Assembly (NCBI GenBank): GCA_004028765.1
Contig: SAIX01000037.1
Coordinates: forward strand, 1 to 64,000
Reading direction: 5' to 3'
Length of the DNA: 64,000 bases
Origin: Chitinophagaceae bacterium
GTDB taxonomy: Bacteria > Bacteroidota > Bacteroidia > Chitinophagales > Chitinophagaceae
The position numbers were made by a program, and so were the translations under genes. Position 1 is the first letter of the stretch. Each line of letters starts with the position of its first letter. Below, piece by piece: positions 3,085 through 46,925 of this stretch. The notes beneath the pieces were generated by a model. That model was not told the origin of the DNA. It did not search any database and saw only the letters and a list, made by a program, of their open reading frames with translations.

Positions 3085-3135
3085 TCGGGCGTTCAGCGTT
3101 ACGCATTTAGCATTCCGCTTTCTAAGCATTCAGCC
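3085..3135 (-). repeat. Heptanucleotide array (GCTGAAy family) overlapping a stop codon
   Basis: Read on the minus strand the segment splits into 7-base units: GGCTGAA, TGCTTAG, (AA), AGCGGAA, TGCTAAA, TGCGTAA, CGCTGAA, CGCCCGA. The TGA of the first unit is the stop codon of the histidine kinase gene that ends here. The unit resembles those at 4746-4804, 5411-5548 and 46882-46925. Confidence 0.7.
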
Positions 3136-4200
3136 CATTGGTAAATAGAAATAAAAATCAGAGCCCTTTCCTTTTTCGCTGGTAAAACCAATGGAACCGT
3201 TATGTAACTCCACCATTTTTTTTGCAATGGCAAGACCAAGCCCCGTTTTTGATTCATGGGCAGTTGGCTGGTTATCCGTGGTGGCAAAGGGATCAAAAAT
3301 GCGGGCATGAAATTTTTCATCGATCCCGAGTCCCTGATCAATTACTTCAGTAAGCAATTGCTGTTTATCGGTAACAGTGACACGAACCTTGACTTTTGTA
3401 TTTTTTTCTGAATACTTGATGGCATTGGTAAGCAGGTTATTGATCACCTGCGACATCCGGTTTTTATCAAATGAAATCCATACCTGTTCCGGAACAAAAT
3501 CCAGCAAAACCGTTTGCTTTTTTTTAGCGGCCAGATGTTGAAGCAGGCCAATATTTTCTTTCAGAAACAGCAGATAGTCCTGTTTTTCTTTTTTCAGGTT
3601 GATGGTTCCGGATTGTATTTTGCTGACGTTGAGTGTATCATTCAGCAAAAGCAGCGAATGGGCCGCGGTATCATATATCATCCGGAGATTCTCTTTCTGT
3701 TCTTCTGTGAGCGACTCTTCTTCCAGCATCATTTCGGCCATCATCTGTATACTCCCTACCGGGTTACGGATATCATGCGCAGCCACTCCGATAAAACGGT
3801 TTAACTGATCGTTACTCTCTTTTAACTCGGCATTTATTTTTTCGAGTGCCACTTTCTGGCTGGCGATAACCTTTCGCTGAACCCTCTCCACATAAAATTT
3901 ATTGGAAGCAACGGCCACCCCGGCTGCCACGAGGATCCTTAACGCCCAGTTCCAATCCCGGAACAGTTCATTTTTATAGGGATGTATACTATAATCGACG
4001 CCGATAGACAAACTGCTTGCGAGCAGGCTAAAACCAAGTATGGCATAGATACCCGGTTGTTCACGATAAGAAAAAACTACGATCGGTAACAGGTAAAGAG
4101 GCGCCAGGTTAAGTTCAAAATTGGTATTGACATCCACAAATACCAATAGAAACAGCAGCAGGAAACAGGCGCTCGTCCGGTAATTCAGTGCTCGCAGCAT
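3130..4200 (-). CDS. Membrane-bound sensor histidine kinase
   Basis: A 356-residue transmitter kinase. About 100 N-terminal residues hold three or more hydrophobic segments forming a small integral membrane sensor, followed by a short coiled linker. The HisKA dimerisation helix carries the phosphorylation site in AAHDIRNP (His near residue 142). The catalytic ATPase domain shows an N box (INNLLTNAIKYS), a G1 box (DQGLGIDE) and a G2 box (KTGLGLAIAKK). There is no receiver or extracellular domain and no adjacent response regulator, so the partner is unknown. The start ATG at 4198-4200 has no better competitor. The stop codon lies inside a heptad repeat array. The kinase function is secure; the signal is not predictable. 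Confidence 0.92.
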   Translation of the reverse strand: MLRALNYRTSACFLLLFLLVFVDVNTNFELNLAPLYLLPIVVFSYREQPGIYAILGFSLLASSLSIGVDYSIHPYKNELFRDWNWALRILVAAGVAVASNKFYVERVQRKVIASQKVALEKINAELKESNDQLNRFIGVAAHDIRNPVGSIQMMAEMMLEEESLTEEQKENLRMIYDTAAHSLLLLNDTLNVSKIQSGTINLKKEKQDYLLFLKENIGLLQHLAAKKKQTVLLDFVPEQVWISFDKNRMSQVINNLLTNAIKYSEKNTKVKVRVTVTDKQQLLTEVIDQGLGIDEKFHARIFDPFATTDNQPTAHESKTGLGLAIAKKMVELHNGSIGFTSEKGKGSDFYFYLPMG

Positions 4201-4745: not shown

Positions 4746-4845
4746 TGCAGAAATGCAAGAAAGGCTGAAAGCAGAACGCTTAAGGCCGAAGGCTGAATGC
4801 AAAAATCTTTATTAGTGTTACGAAAACAGGTGTTGGGCAATCAAC
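4746..4845. repeat. Inverted pair of heptanucleotide arrays (GCTGAAy family)
   Basis: The left arm (4746-4804, plus strand) reads in 7-base steps including GGCTGAA, AGCAGAA, CGCTTAA, GGCCGAA, GGCTGAA and TGCAAAA. The right arm (4819-4845) reads on the minus strand as TGCCCAA, CACCTGT, TTTCGTA. The same right-arm units occur at 5514-5548. It lies between the divergent DUF4440 and YdcZ-like genes. Confidence 0.65.
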
Positions 4846-4969
4846 TATTTTATCAGGTTATCTGATTATGCAGAAAATTTATTTCAACGCAATAAATATC
4901 CGGTTACAAAAAACAATCTCTAAGCATTTTGCTTCAAGCGTCTTTCTGCTTATTCCCTATTTTCGAACC

Positions 4970-5416
4970 ATGAAATATATTTTCTTTGTGTTGCCTGCAT
5001 TGGCAGGATTAACCATCACTACACAGGCCGCTGTAAACAGCCAGTTACGTTTTGCCGTGAACAATCCCTGGTTGGCCGCATTTATTTCCTTTCTTGTAGG
5101 TACAGTGTTTCTCGGGGCAGTTATTCTCTTTACAAAACAACCGGTTCCCTCACTTACCACACTTTCTCAGGTATCCTGGTATAAATATACGGGTGGCTTA
5201 CTGGGTGCTTTTTTTGTAACGGTCATTATTTATTCCGTTCCAAAAATCGGTTCAGCCAATGTATTTGCTTTATTGATAGCCGGCCAGTTATTTTTCGCAT
5301 TGTTATACGACCATTTCGGATTGTTTGGTTTTCCGCAGAACAGTATCAGCTGGGTAAAAGTATTGGGCGTGTTGTTGCTCGTAACAGGAGCTTACCTGGT
5401 TAATAAAAGAAGCTGA
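4970..5416 (+). CDS. YdcZ/DUF606-type small DMT membrane protein
   Basis: 148 residues starting at the ATG of MKYIFFVLPALAG; the frame is open 34 codons upstream but that extension is not membrane-like and overlaps the repeat region. Five hydrophobic helices make up almost the whole protein, with the family signature of an early TxxQAAVNSQLR stretch, a central KYTGGLLGAFFV and a terminal VLGVLLLVTGAYLVN. The length is normal for the DUF606 half-size drug/metabolite-transporter relatives. The substrate is unknown. Its TGA stop (5414-5416) is formed by the first unit of a heptad array. Confidence 0.85.
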   Translation: MKYIFFVLPALAGLTITTQAAVNSQLRFAVNNPWLAAFISFLVGTVFLGAVILFTKQPVPSLTTLSQVSWYKYTGGLLGAFFVTVIIYSVPKIGSANVFALLIAGQLFFALLYDHFGLFGFPQNSISWVKVLGVLLLVTGAYLVNKRS

Positions 5417-5548
5417 ATGCAGAACGCTTGATTCGTATTAAACAAATACTAAGCGGGCTTATTGTTATTTTGATTTACCCGGTAATCCATTTTTATGCAA
5501 TACCCATGAGGCTACGAAAAACAGGCGTTGGGCATTCAGCATTCCGCG
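5411..5548. repeat. Inverted pair of heptanucleotide arrays around an 80-bp spacer
   Basis: The left arm (5411-5438, plus) reads AGCTGAA, TGCAGAA, CGCTTGA, TTCGTAT. The right arm (5514-5548) reads on the minus strand CGCGGAA, TGCTGAA, TGCCCAA, CGCCTGT, TTTTCGT. The two arms are inverted about an A/T-rich core with no recognisable gene. The left arm overlaps the stop codon of the YdcZ-like gene. Confidence 0.65.
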
Positions 5549-5557
5549 TCAGGTGTA

Positions 5558-31031: not shown

Positions 31032-32069
31032 TCATCCCTGTTTGGCAAAGGCATTCCAGCCCTGGGCCGTGATATCAAAACGGTTCCCTCCCTTCGTATA
31101 CAACTTGCAACCCTCTTCAATACCGGTCATATAGCCAATCACGCTGATCTCTTCATTAAGCGTGATCTTATCATGGTCTTCCTGTTTCAGCGTAAAAATC
31201 AGTTCATAATCTTCCCCGCCATTCAATGCACAAACGGTTGGATCGAGCCCGAATTTGAAGGCGGCTTTACGGCTGTCGTCTGCCACCGGTATCTTGTCTT
31301 CGTAAATCACGCAGCCGAGGTTGCTTTGCCTGCACAAATGCAGCACTTCGCTGCTGATGCCATCACTTACATCCATCATGGATGTGGGCAGGATATTGTT
31401 CTCGTCAAAAAACGCGATGATCTCTTTTCTTGCTTCCGGTTTTAATAATCTTCCTACGATATAGGCTTCATTTTCCAGGTCGGGCTGCAGTTGTGGGTTT
31501 TCGAGGTAGATCTTTTTTTCCCGCTCCATCAGCGTAAGACCGAGAAACGCACCACCCAGGTCGCCGCTTACACAAATCAGGTCGCCCTTTTGTGCAGTAC
31601 TTCTTTTCACGAGTTTTTCCGGCACCACTTCCCCGATGGCTGTTACAGAAATGATAAACCCTTTGTTGGAAGAAGATGTGTCGCCACCCACCAGGTCAAC
31701 CCCGTGTTTCTCACAGGCGAGGTAAACCCCTTCATAAAATTCATTCAATGCTTCGAGACTGAACCGGTTGCTGATGGCAATGCTCATCGTGATCTGGGTG
31801 GGGCTGGCATTCATTGCATACACATCACTCAGGTTCACCATTACGGCTTTATAACCCAGGTGTTTCAGGGGTGTGTACATCAGGTCGAAATGAATGCCTT
31901 CCACTAACAGATCGGTGGTAACCACGATCTGTTTTCCAAAATGATCGAGCACTGCCGCATCATCACCAACGCCGAGAATAGTTGAGGCGTTTTGTATTTC
32001 AAAATTCCGGGTAAGGTGGTCGATGAGACCAAATTCACCCAGTGTTGCTATTTCTGTTCGTTCTTCCAT
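31032..32069 (-). CDS. thiL: Thiamine-monophosphate kinase
   Basis: 345 residues of the AIR-synthase/PurM-like fold. Seen are LGEFGLIDHLT, the ATP/Mg Asp motif GVGDDAAVLDH, MNLSDVYAMNASP-like VNLSDVYAM, VGGDTSSS and MMDVSDGISSEVLHLC, and NGGEDYELIFT, all diagnostic of ThiL. It phosphorylates thiamine monophosphate to the diphosphate cofactor. No other thiamine gene is near. Its ATG directly abuts the heptad array at 32070-32097, so the normal 5' leader is replaced by repeat units. Confidence 0.95.
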   Translation of the reverse strand: MEERTEIATLGEFGLIDHLTRNFEIQNASTILGVGDDAAVLDHFGKQIVVTTDLLVEGIHFDLMYTPLKHLGYKAVMVNLSDVYAMNASPTQITMSIAISNRFSLEALNEFYEGVYLACEKHGVDLVGGDTSSSNKGFIISVTAIGEVVPEKLVKRSTAQKGDLICVSGDLGGAFLGLTLMEREKKIYLENPQLQPDLENEAYIVGRLLKPEARKEIIAFFDENNILPTSMMDVSDGISSEVLHLCRQSNLGCVIYEDKIPVADDSRKAAFKFGLDPTVCALNGGEDYELIFTLKQEDHDKITLNEEISVIGYMTGIEEGCKLYTKGGNRFDITAQGWNAFAKQG

Positions 32070-32097
32070 AAGTACAAAATACGAGGTACGAAGTACG
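32070..32097 (+). repeat. Heptanucleotide array, left arm flanking the four-helix-bundle gene
   Basis: Plus strand reads as exactly four 7-base units: AAGTACA, AAATACG, AGGTACG, AAGTACG. It ends 2 bases before the stop codon of the four-helix-bundle gene and begins at the base next to the thiL ATG. The matching inverted arm is at 32463-32490. Confidence 0.9.
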
Positions 32098-32099
32098 GG

Positions 32100-32462
32100 T
32101 TATTTAGGCGTTTGATTCATTTTGAATCTGACTGTGTTGATAGACGCAACGATTATTTTTAAAATTTCAGTTCCTTCAGATAGTAAAGTGGATATTACAT
32201 TTTCGAATCCGGGATTCAATTCTTTCAGCAGTTCGAGAAAGTACAGGGTTTCATCGGCTTCTTCTTCAACGATTTTTAATTTATTCAGGAAATCAGCATC
32301 CGACTTCGCTCTCCTGGCAGCCCTGTAATTCGCACCCACCGAAGCTGCACTTCTGATTATCTGTCGCAAGTGAGCCCTGTTAATCATATTGTCCGGTAAA
32401 TCTCTGGCCAGTTTGCTGATGCTTACTGCATAATCGAACGTTCTCTGCTTCAAGTCTTGCAT
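32100..32462 (-). CDS. Four-helix-bundle protein (S23 / 23S rRNA intervening-sequence protein family)
   Basis: 120 residues, all helical. The family signature is clear: RTFDYAVSISKLARDLP, IIRSAASVGANYRAARRAKS and DFLNKLKIVEEEADETLYFL. These are standalone relatives of proteins encoded in 23S rRNA intervening sequences and of the bAvd accessory protein of diversity-generating retroelements; they form pentameric helical barrels that bind nucleic acid. No rRNA, reverse transcriptase or variable repeat is nearby. The start codon directly abuts one heptad array and the stop codon lies 2 bases from the inverted copy, so gene and arrays look like one cassette placed between thiL and suhB. Function of chromosomal members is unknown. 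Confidence 0.93.
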   Translation of the reverse strand: MQDLKQRTFDYAVSISKLARDLPDNMINRAHLRQIIRSAASVGANYRAARRAKSDADFLNKLKIVEEEADETLYFLELLKELNPGFENVISTLLSEGTEILKIIVASINTVRFKMNQTPK

Positions 32463-32490
32463 CGTACTTTGTACTTCTTACTTTTAACTT
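32463..32490 (+). repeat. Heptanucleotide array, right arm flanking the four-helix-bundle gene
   Basis: Plus strand reads CGTACTT, TGTACTT, CTTACTT, TTAACTT, the inverse complement of AAGTACG-type units. It fills the whole gap between the four-helix-bundle ATG (32460-32462) and the suhB stop codon; two bases of the last unit are part of that stop codon. Confidence 0.9.
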
Positions 32491-33274
32491 ATTCTCCAAT
32501 CTCCCCTCCATTCACCACGTGTATCAGCTCGTCGTGGATGTTGCCATTCGTAGCGATGATATGCGGCTGATAGGGGGAATAATAGTCGCCGTTAAAGTCG
32601 GTTACTTTTCCGCCTGCTTCTTCCACCATTAAAAATCCCGCGGCACTGTCCCATGCATTCAGTTTGTGTTCATAAAACCCATCAAACCTTCCGGCAGCCA
32701 CCCAGCAAAGATCAAGTGCAGCGCTTCCGAGCCTCCTGACAGGGATGCCTTTCCGGATCAGCTTTTCAAAAACCTGCAATGGACCGTTGGGCGAATCGAG
32801 ATACGTGTATGGGAAACCCGTGGCAAGACAACTGTGTTTTAATTGCACCTGTTCGCTGATATGGATACGGGTATCGTTCAGCGTGGCGCCAAATCCTTTC
32901 TGTGCAAAAAAGAGTTCATTCATAAACGGGTTGTACACCGCGCCCATGATCATGATACCATTGTGTTCCACACCGATGCTGACACAACAAACCGGGATAT
33001 TATTTGCAAAATTGATGGTGCCATCAATTGGGTCAATGATCCATTTATAGGCCGAATCCATCACGATCTCCCCGGTTTCCTCGCTCAGGATATAGTGACC
33101 GGGAAACTCATCCTGTATCACTTCAAAAATGGCTTTCTCCGCTGCATGATCGGCTTCTGTAACAAGGTTATTCATCCCTTCCTTATTGCTGATCTTGAAT
33201 TCGCCATTAAAAAAACGCGTGAGTTCAGCCGCGCCGGCTTCTGTTGCTTTCAGCAACGTGTGTTTTAACATCAT
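32489..33274 (-). CDS. suhB: Inositol monophosphatase family protein (SuhB-like)
   Basis: 261 residues; two adjacent ATG codons (33274 and 33271) could start it. The metal-binding motifs of the Li-sensitive phosphatases are complete: ILSEETGE, WIIDPIDGTINFAN and LNAWDSAAG. The protein hydrolyses inositol-1-phosphate or related sugar phosphates such as 3'-phosphoadenosine 5'-phosphate in the cytoplasm. A TAAGTTTG box lies only 5-8 bases upstream, so either the leader is extremely short or that match is chance. The stop codon shares two bases with a heptad array. Confidence 0.93.
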   Translation of the reverse strand: MMLKHTLLKATEAGAAELTRFFNGEFKISNKEGMNNLVTEADHAAEKAIFEVIQDEFPGHYILSEETGEIVMDSAYKWIIDPIDGTINFANNIPVCCVSIGVEHNGIMIMGAVYNPFMNELFFAQKGFGATLNDTRIHISEQVQLKHSCLATGFPYTYLDSPNGPLQVFEKLIRKGIPVRRLGSAALDLCWVAAGRFDGFYEHKLNAWDSAAGFLMVEEAGGKVTDFNGDYYSPYQPHIIATNGNIHDELIHVVNGGEIGE

Positions 33275-46872: not shown

Positions 46873-46881
46873 GTTGGGATA

Positions 46882-46925
46882 AGCGGTAAAAGCTGAAGGC
46901 TGAACGCAGAACACTTATTCAGTAA
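46882..46925 (+). repeat. Heptanucleotide array (GCTGAAy family)
   Basis: Plus strand units AGCTGAA, GGCTGAA, CGCAGAA, CACTTAT, TCAGTAA from 46891, with a leading AGCGGTA. It sits just upstream of the cytochrome operator, in the gap to the response-regulator gene. Confidence 0.65.

Follow-up and report, generated by a model that had tools for sequence, protein, structure and literature searches.

Between thiL and a gene of the inositol-monophosphatase (IMPase) family, the window, which is the whole 64,000-nt stretch of Chitinophagaceae DNA analysed here, contains an inserted unit in which a small gene of the S23 family is bracketed by inverted arrays of a 7-bp repeat (heptads). The gene and both arrays were cleanly inserted, the coupling of gene and arrays extends across the protein family, the word that flanks a cassette tends to match arrays dispersed in the same genome, the two arms of a cassette change jointly and the protein is under purifying selection. 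The reading that we favour, held as somewhat more likely than not, is that the unit is an S23-heptad cassette comparable with REPIN-RAYT systems, with a protein that acts on its cognate heptads; both the binding and the spread in this reading are inferred. The locus has the following features:

31032-32069: thiL; its start codon is the CAT at 32067-32069
32070-32097, + strand: 3′ arm, units AAGTACA AAATACG AGGTACG AAGTACG; reverse complement on the gene strand
32100-32462, - strand: four-helix-bundle gene, 120 aa, PF05635/TIGR02436 (S23 / 23S rRNA intervening-sequence-protein family)
32463-32490, + strand: 5′ arm, inverted units CGTACTT TGTACTT CTTACTT TTAACTT; pairs with the 3′ arm
32070-32490: whole inserted unit, ~420 bp, between thiL and the IMPase-family gene
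32489-33274: IMPase-family gene (inositol monophosphatase, PF00459)

The 3′ arm begins immediately next to the thiL start codon and runs to 2 bases short of the stop codon of the small gene. The 5′ arm adjoins the start codon of this gene (CAT, 32460-32462) and overlaps the IMPase stop codon by 2 bases, and both intergenic gaps are fully occupied by the 4 + 4 inverted heptads. The arms can form a 25-bp pairing that reaches both ends of the unit, with -23.8 kcal/mol as an RNA duplex. Three period-7 stretches with ≥16/21 matches are present in the window, as compared with 0.05 expected from a second-order Markov model, and two of these are the arms of the S23 gene. An earlier note, made from the sequence alone, had described four heptads and four inverted heptads at these places, filling both gaps, and this is confirmed; the name suhB that it gave to the neighbouring gene is corrected to IMPase-family gene (PF00459).

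The window protein scores 55.8 bits against PF05635 (cut-off 33.8) and 80.4 bits against TIGR02436 (cut-off 24). PF05635 is the only domain found in it, with no Y1_Tnp (HuH Y1) domain, and an Rfam search returned no match near threshold. The AlphaFold2 model (pLDDT 94) is all-helical and matches 2rld and 2gsc (XCC0516); E-values against the Avd proteins of DGRs (4dwl/8ub7) are weaker, with TM up to 0.82. Assignment to an S23/bAvd-like four-helix family, also made in the earlier note, is upheld by the PF05635 and TIGR02436 matches and by the Avd-like fold. XCC0516 forms a homopentameric ring (cited in PMC4990558), and members of the PF05635 family are not known to have a catalytic site. With dN/dS of ~0.04-0.17, the protein is under purifying selection.

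In at least 20 relatives from the same genus, thiL and the IMPase gene are adjacent, separated by a short gap, with neither the small gene nor heptads. In G010, the nearest relative by thiL (87%), this gap is ~23 bp as compared with ~438 bp in the window. Because gene and arrays are both absent from the site in relatives, they were inserted together, or in quick succession, and the event is a clean insertion of the gene with both arrays as a unit. A comparison of the spacing between thiL and its neighbour in relatives had been proposed from the first inspection, along with the possibility that the whole unit moves. The gene-less relatives do have a short gap without arrays, and movement is supported in the sense of an insertion cassette, with how the unit moves being an inference. 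The site has no pre-existing hairpin in the relatives (at least 20); that a hairpin was gained there shortly before the gene remains possible and is not excluded.

The genome that contains the window (G000) has 12 family members, one truncated by a contig end, and all 11 complete copies are bracketed by inverted short-unit arrays. At L008, the 3′ array falls within an extended reading frame. The arm words of the 11 copies are GACCAAA, GAACGCx, CATGAAC, a 9-bp unit, GTGAATC, AACCTGA, GTGAATG, AATTAAx, TCAAAAT, AGTTAAA and AAGTACG; as every copy has its own word, one conserved heptad for all copies is rejected. Arms agree within a locus and not across loci (mean 38.6 vs. 17.4). Among 647 control genes from G000, a single array is present on one flank or the other of 105, strong heptads are present on both flanks of five, and inverted matches in just 2-3, one of which shares its array with an S23 copy. 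Bracketing by matching inverted arrays is therefore a feature of 11/11 S23 copies vs. 2-3/647 other genes. The proposal of a dedicated gene-array unit would have been refuted by arrays equally common around unrelated genes, and this refutation fails: single arrays are common, but matching inverted bracketing almost always belongs to the S23 family.

At just 16-31% identity with the window protein, the other members in G000 are not recent duplicates of one element, and the different arm words among copies of one genome also rule out simple duplication of one element. An origin of the copies by recent in-genome duplication is accordingly rejected, although L005 and L007 are 58% identical. In the 0.79 Mb of G000 surveyed, GTATAAATACG occurs four times, always between the 5′ array and an S23 gene and on the gene strand (L004, L005, L008 and L010, 62-94 nt upstream of the match). 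It is possibly a shared promoter or operator; as a universal internal motif it was rejected, being confined to the G000 copies.

Dispersed arrays were surveyed in these 0.79 Mb, which make up about one fifth of G000 and come mostly from contigs with an S23 copy. There are 90 period-7 arrays (≥16/21 matches), whereas each of the other periods in the range 4-11 gives 0-22; period 8 is mildly enriched genome-wide. The arrays fall into few word families, mostly those that flank S23 copies, and many are palindromic hairpins: 31/114 are paired with an inverted array no more than 150 bp away. Of the 95 arrays not at S23 loci, 60 have an 11-mer in common with an arm of one of the genome's own S23 genes. 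Own arms match a mean of 6.0 solo arrays and arms from foreign genomes match fewer (p=0.0015), with 3 of the 11 own cassettes lacking a cognate solo array in the 0.79-Mb sample. Dispersed arrays in the window itself are:

3087-3137: dispersed array
4760-4805, + strand: GCTGAAC-family array, dispersed; the same word flanks L002, another four-helix gene of G000
5522-5552, - strand: inverted partner of 4760-4805, GCTGAAC family; the two bracket a small membrane-protein gene
46876-46919, + strand: dispersed heptad array GGTAAAAGCTGAAGGCTGAACGCAGAAC

The sequences at 3087-3137, 4760-4805, 5413-5430 and 5522-5552 are GCTGAAC/GCATTCA arrays, in both orientations, that surround the gene of a small DMT-like membrane protein (4868-5416) and also lie where a histidine-kinase gene ends.

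Within the genus, 41 genomes were compared. ATTAAGA-type hits number 145 in G000 (12 S23 genes), 45 in G039 (5 genes), 34 in G031 (2 genes) and 33 in G041 (6 genes), vs. 0-5 in genomes without an S23 gene; the correlation of hits with S23 genes (rho 0.41; 0.35 excluding G000) is without correction for phylogeny. There are 214 GTGARTG arrays in G000, 115 in G041 and none in the other 39 genomes. Among the S23 loci compared, proteins that start MFLxLNHxKLDV (L005 and L007; L131 and L136) form a subfamily present only in G000 and G041, and the arms of these genes carry the GTGARTG word. A divergent S23 group from five genomes (L029, L123, L124, L125 and L129) has common flanking sequence and no arrays. 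Four of these five genomes have no other family member and 0-1 array hits, and so provide a natural negative control. Orthologues without heptads, the other observation that would have counted against the proposal, are found only in this group, which appears to be vertically inherited and might be a domesticated or an ancestral repeat-free form.

The family is present in 193 of 247 genomes of the phylum. Beyond the genus, we sampled 30 loci from the phylum and 80 named loci, from ~20 phyla, that were picked by similarity to XCC0516 and include Xanthomonas, Luteimonas, Dokdonella, Clostridia, Chloroflexi, Planctomycetota, Acidobacteria and WOR-3 representatives. The same gene-in-inverted-arrays anatomy is found at most of these loci. 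When 160 loci are pooled, period 7 (≥15/21 matches) is detected within 180 bp at 115/160 (72%), as compared with 11/147 at 900-1080 bp; by origin, the positives are 9/11 own, 11/18 genus, 9/17 order, 18/29 phylum, 56/67 named and 12/18 other copies. No other period, multiples of 7 aside, is enriched near the gene at the 160 loci. At 110 of them, the arms complement each other better than 95% of arm pairs drawn from different loci, where 5% of loci would be expected. A census of arrays around S23 genes, suggested at the outset for Chitinophagaceae genomes, here documents gene-array coupling as general for the S23 family (160 loci, ~20 phyla).

Units of 8 or 9 bp are present in the same inverted layout at L004, L139, L146, L163, L165, L166, L332 and L253. 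Most of ten cyanobacterial plasmid copies likewise have short-unit arms, and the plasmid copies L364, L355 and L357 lie between cas10/cmr3, cas6/cas4 and nrdB/nrdA. In G302, the 4.7-Mb WOR-3 genome of L283, there are 29 PF05635 matches, and those inspected mostly have their own arm words.

Based on random 20-kb samples from each genome, there are 5.6 arrays per Mb in 12 genomes without S23, 28 in genomes with 1-2 genes and 33 in genomes with ≥4, and other periods are roughly flat across these classes. The cross-genome correlations are moderate (rho ~0.4) and were not corrected for phylogeny. Beyond close homologues, similarity of the word follows similarity of the protein only loosely, and support for a simple protein-to-word code across distant homologues is weak.

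An S23 gene is located between accB and accC in all six species of Xanthomonadaceae and near relatives that were compared, with proteins 56-97% identical to the X. arboricola copy. Inheritance at accB-accC is vertical, so that a cassette can be very stable. Xanthomonas and L. salinisoli have GGGAATC as the flanking word at this site, Dokdonella and Aquimonas have GGGATTC, and L. cucumeris has GTGATTS. With one mismatch allowed for GGGAATC and GTGATTS, and none for GGGATTC, the genome counts of GGGAATC/GTGATTS/GGGATTC are 319/3/12 in X. arboricola, 157/2/7 in X. dyei, 253/65/0 in L. salinisoli, 31/0/118 in Dokdonella, 36/2/40 in Aquimonas and 121/218/1 in L. cucumeris, and a reversed-pattern control gave 0 hits in all six species. 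In every one of the six, the commonest of the three words genome-wide is the word that flanks the accB-accC cassette. There are exceptions: the 121 GGGAATC in L. cucumeris are not explained by either of its two S23 genes, nor are the 65 GTGATTS in L. salinisoli by its one S23 gene. A second L. cucumeris S23 gene with GGGAATC arms was predicted and not found, the arms of the second gene being TTGTTGGG-like octads. Arm complementarity at accB-accC is 44.5 within a locus vs. 27.0 between orthologues, and at a second site, in another species group, 33.3 vs. 22.0. Since the two arms of one locus complement each other better than arms of orthologous loci do, both arms change jointly at a fixed site. 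GGGAATC is a published, unexplained Xanthomonas heptad (PMC4692102), and XCC0516 is not mentioned by the authors of that study.

Among described elements, the rRNA intervening sequences (IVS) of Coxiella burnetii and Leptospira resemble the window unit in their size (~420 nt), S23/PF05635 ORF and terminal inverted repeats. The Coxiella IVS has 428 nt, an S23p ORF and a 28-bp terminal inverted repeat, with GACAGAT heptamers before the ORF that vary in number among strains, and is excised by RNase III (PMC4990558). Its 28-bp stem (~4 x 7), tandem heptamers and patchy distribution are shared with S23 cassettes. IVS are, however, located inside 23S rRNA whereas the window unit is intergenic, between thiL and the IMPase gene, and, unlike IVS, the present family has dispersed matching arrays, many copies per genome and copy-specific words. 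Argued by analogy, the Coxiella and Leptospira IVS are likely a special case, produced by insertion of a cassette into a 23S rRNA gene.

As in REPIN-RAYT systems, inverted copies of a repeat enclose the gene, and the repeat is found elsewhere in the genome without the gene, often as palindromes; the type of repeat is tied to the presence of the gene, and the gene-flanking and dispersed repeats change jointly. RAYT (TnpA-REP) is a HuH Y1 nuclease that acts on one hairpin motif. The S23 protein, in contrast, is a small four-helix bundle for which no catalysis is known, and its repeat is a 7-bp tandem array that varies among copies. The Avd proteins of DGRs have the same four-helix-bundle fold and form pentamers (4dwl, 8ub7), but their sequence family differs from the PF05635 of the window, and no reverse transcriptase or template/variable repeats were recognised beside the window gene, with only the immediate neighbours, thiL and the IMPase gene, considered.

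Published heptads, including GGGGATT in Nostoc (PMC4692102), TAACTGA in Beggiatoaceae (PMC4679880) and those of Xanthomonas, with 70-75 inverted heptad pairs in each of two genomes, are likewise dispersed intergenic 7-bp arrays, often in inverted pairs, as are the cyanobacterial STRR. They were described without an associated gene, whereas here GGGAATC is inverted around the Xanthomonas S23 gene (XCC0516 orthologues). In the open-access literature searched, no link of the S23 family to heptad or inverted repeats was found beyond the Coxiella IVS paper. Because the window unit fails one defining feature each of IVS, REPIN-RAYT and DGR, we consider it likely, again by analogy, that it represents a previously undescribed kind of system, operating in the manner of REPIN-RAYT and with the IVS as a probable member. 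The earlier note knew of no described system of such form; in the open-access literature, the Coxiella IVS is nearest in anatomy.

In the mechanism that we propose, a gene encoding a non-catalytic, ring-forming four-helix protein would insert into intergenic DNA as one piece with inverted arrays of its own word. The ring protein would recognise its own heptad arrays, as a hairpin of DNA or of RNA, and, together with host enzymes, would keep, homogenise and spread the cassette and the solo arrays; binding, recruitment and spread in trans are all inferred. Weighing against this mechanism are the lack of a known catalytic site, the stability of the accB-accC cassette, the GGGAATC and GTGATTS hits without a cognate gene, the own cassettes that lack solo arrays, the moderate correlations uncorrected for phylogeny, the loose relation between word and protein, and the missing enrichment of sense-strand G.U pairs. 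The initial suggestion that the protein acts on the repeats in DNA or RNA gains support from the coupling of gene and arrays, with the action itself remaining an inference. Under a bolder reading, S23/IVP proteins are bacteria-wide trans-acting partners, each propagating its own 7-bp word, and this self-spreading protein-repeat class includes the rRNA IVS and accounts for the heptad arrays of Xanthomonas, cyanobacteria and Bacteroidota. Taken as one joint claim, this could as well prove wrong as right.

The arm mismatches bear on whether DNA or RNA is recognised. At 109 loci, 75 transition mismatches would give G.U pairs in the sense transcript vs. 117 of the mirror type (G.U in antisense; p=0.003). 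Because the arm mismatches are not enriched for sense G.U pairs, selection on a sense-strand RNA stem is disfavoured and, with the bias in the opposite direction, unsupported.

Three alternatives were evaluated. The one that survives best, itself unlikely, is that heptad palindromes arise independently, by slippage and inversion, and that the S23 gene is a passenger that inserts preferentially into hairpins. Solo palindromic hairpins are indeed common in G000 (31/114 arrays, as above), arrays lie beside many other genes, and polymerase slippage has been put forward as the cause of the heptamer excess in bacteria (work cited in PMC4692102 and PMC4679880). However, arrays are ~20 times rarer in the sampled S23-less genomes (5.6/Mb) than in G000 (90 in 0.79 Mb), GTGARTG is absent from all compared genomes of the genus but the two in which the cognate gene subfamily was found, matching inverted arrays hardly ever enclose a gene of another family and the dispersed word follows the cassette word. 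Slippage alone would make arrays independent of any gene, a criterion that is not met as the words match S23 genes and the density follows S23 content.

Less probable still is that the S23 protein is a resident host regulator, binding RNA or DNA, with the arrays functioning as operators or terminators, the arms serving in autoregulation and mobility being incidental. Purifying selection on the protein, vertical inheritance at accB-accC and the conserved GTATAAATACG upstream of own copies are consistent with this, and regulatory roles have been proposed for the gene-proximal GGGAATC and TAACTGA heptamers (PMC4692102, PMC4679880). Four features are, however, atypical of a host regulon: the patchy presence within the genus, words that change from species to species, the many divergent copies per genome (12 in G000, 29 in one WOR-3 genome) and cassettes that interrupt conserved operons, as at accB-accC and thiL-IMPase and, among plasmid copies, at nrdB/nrdA and cas10/cmr3. 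The least likely alternative, an RNA-level element like the IVS in which RNase III excises the arm stem and the protein binds the hairpin or aids reinsertion, has in its favour the size, S23 ORF, terminal inverted repeats and heptamers shared with the RNase III-cut Coxiella IVS (PMC4990558), the 25-bp pairing of the window arms and a fold similar to Avd, a partner of reverse transcriptase on RNA, but is opposed by the lack of a sense-strand G.U bias in arm mismatches, by cassettes not confined to structured-RNA stems, and by the absence of an Rfam match and of a reverse transcriptase among the immediate neighbours.

Because a cassette can sit inside any operon, caution is needed when PF05635 genes are counted as CRISPR- or DGR-associated, and reports of such links may in part reflect plasmid cassette insertions. 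The preferred reading, an S23-heptad cassette whose protein would act on its cognate heptads, joins two puzzles, the role of the widespread S23/IVP proteins and the origin of the heptads dispersed in bacterial genomes. It gives bacterial 7-bp repeats a candidate protein partner, makes the testable claim that each protein should prefer its own heptad word, and provides a likely origin for the intervening sequences of rRNA.
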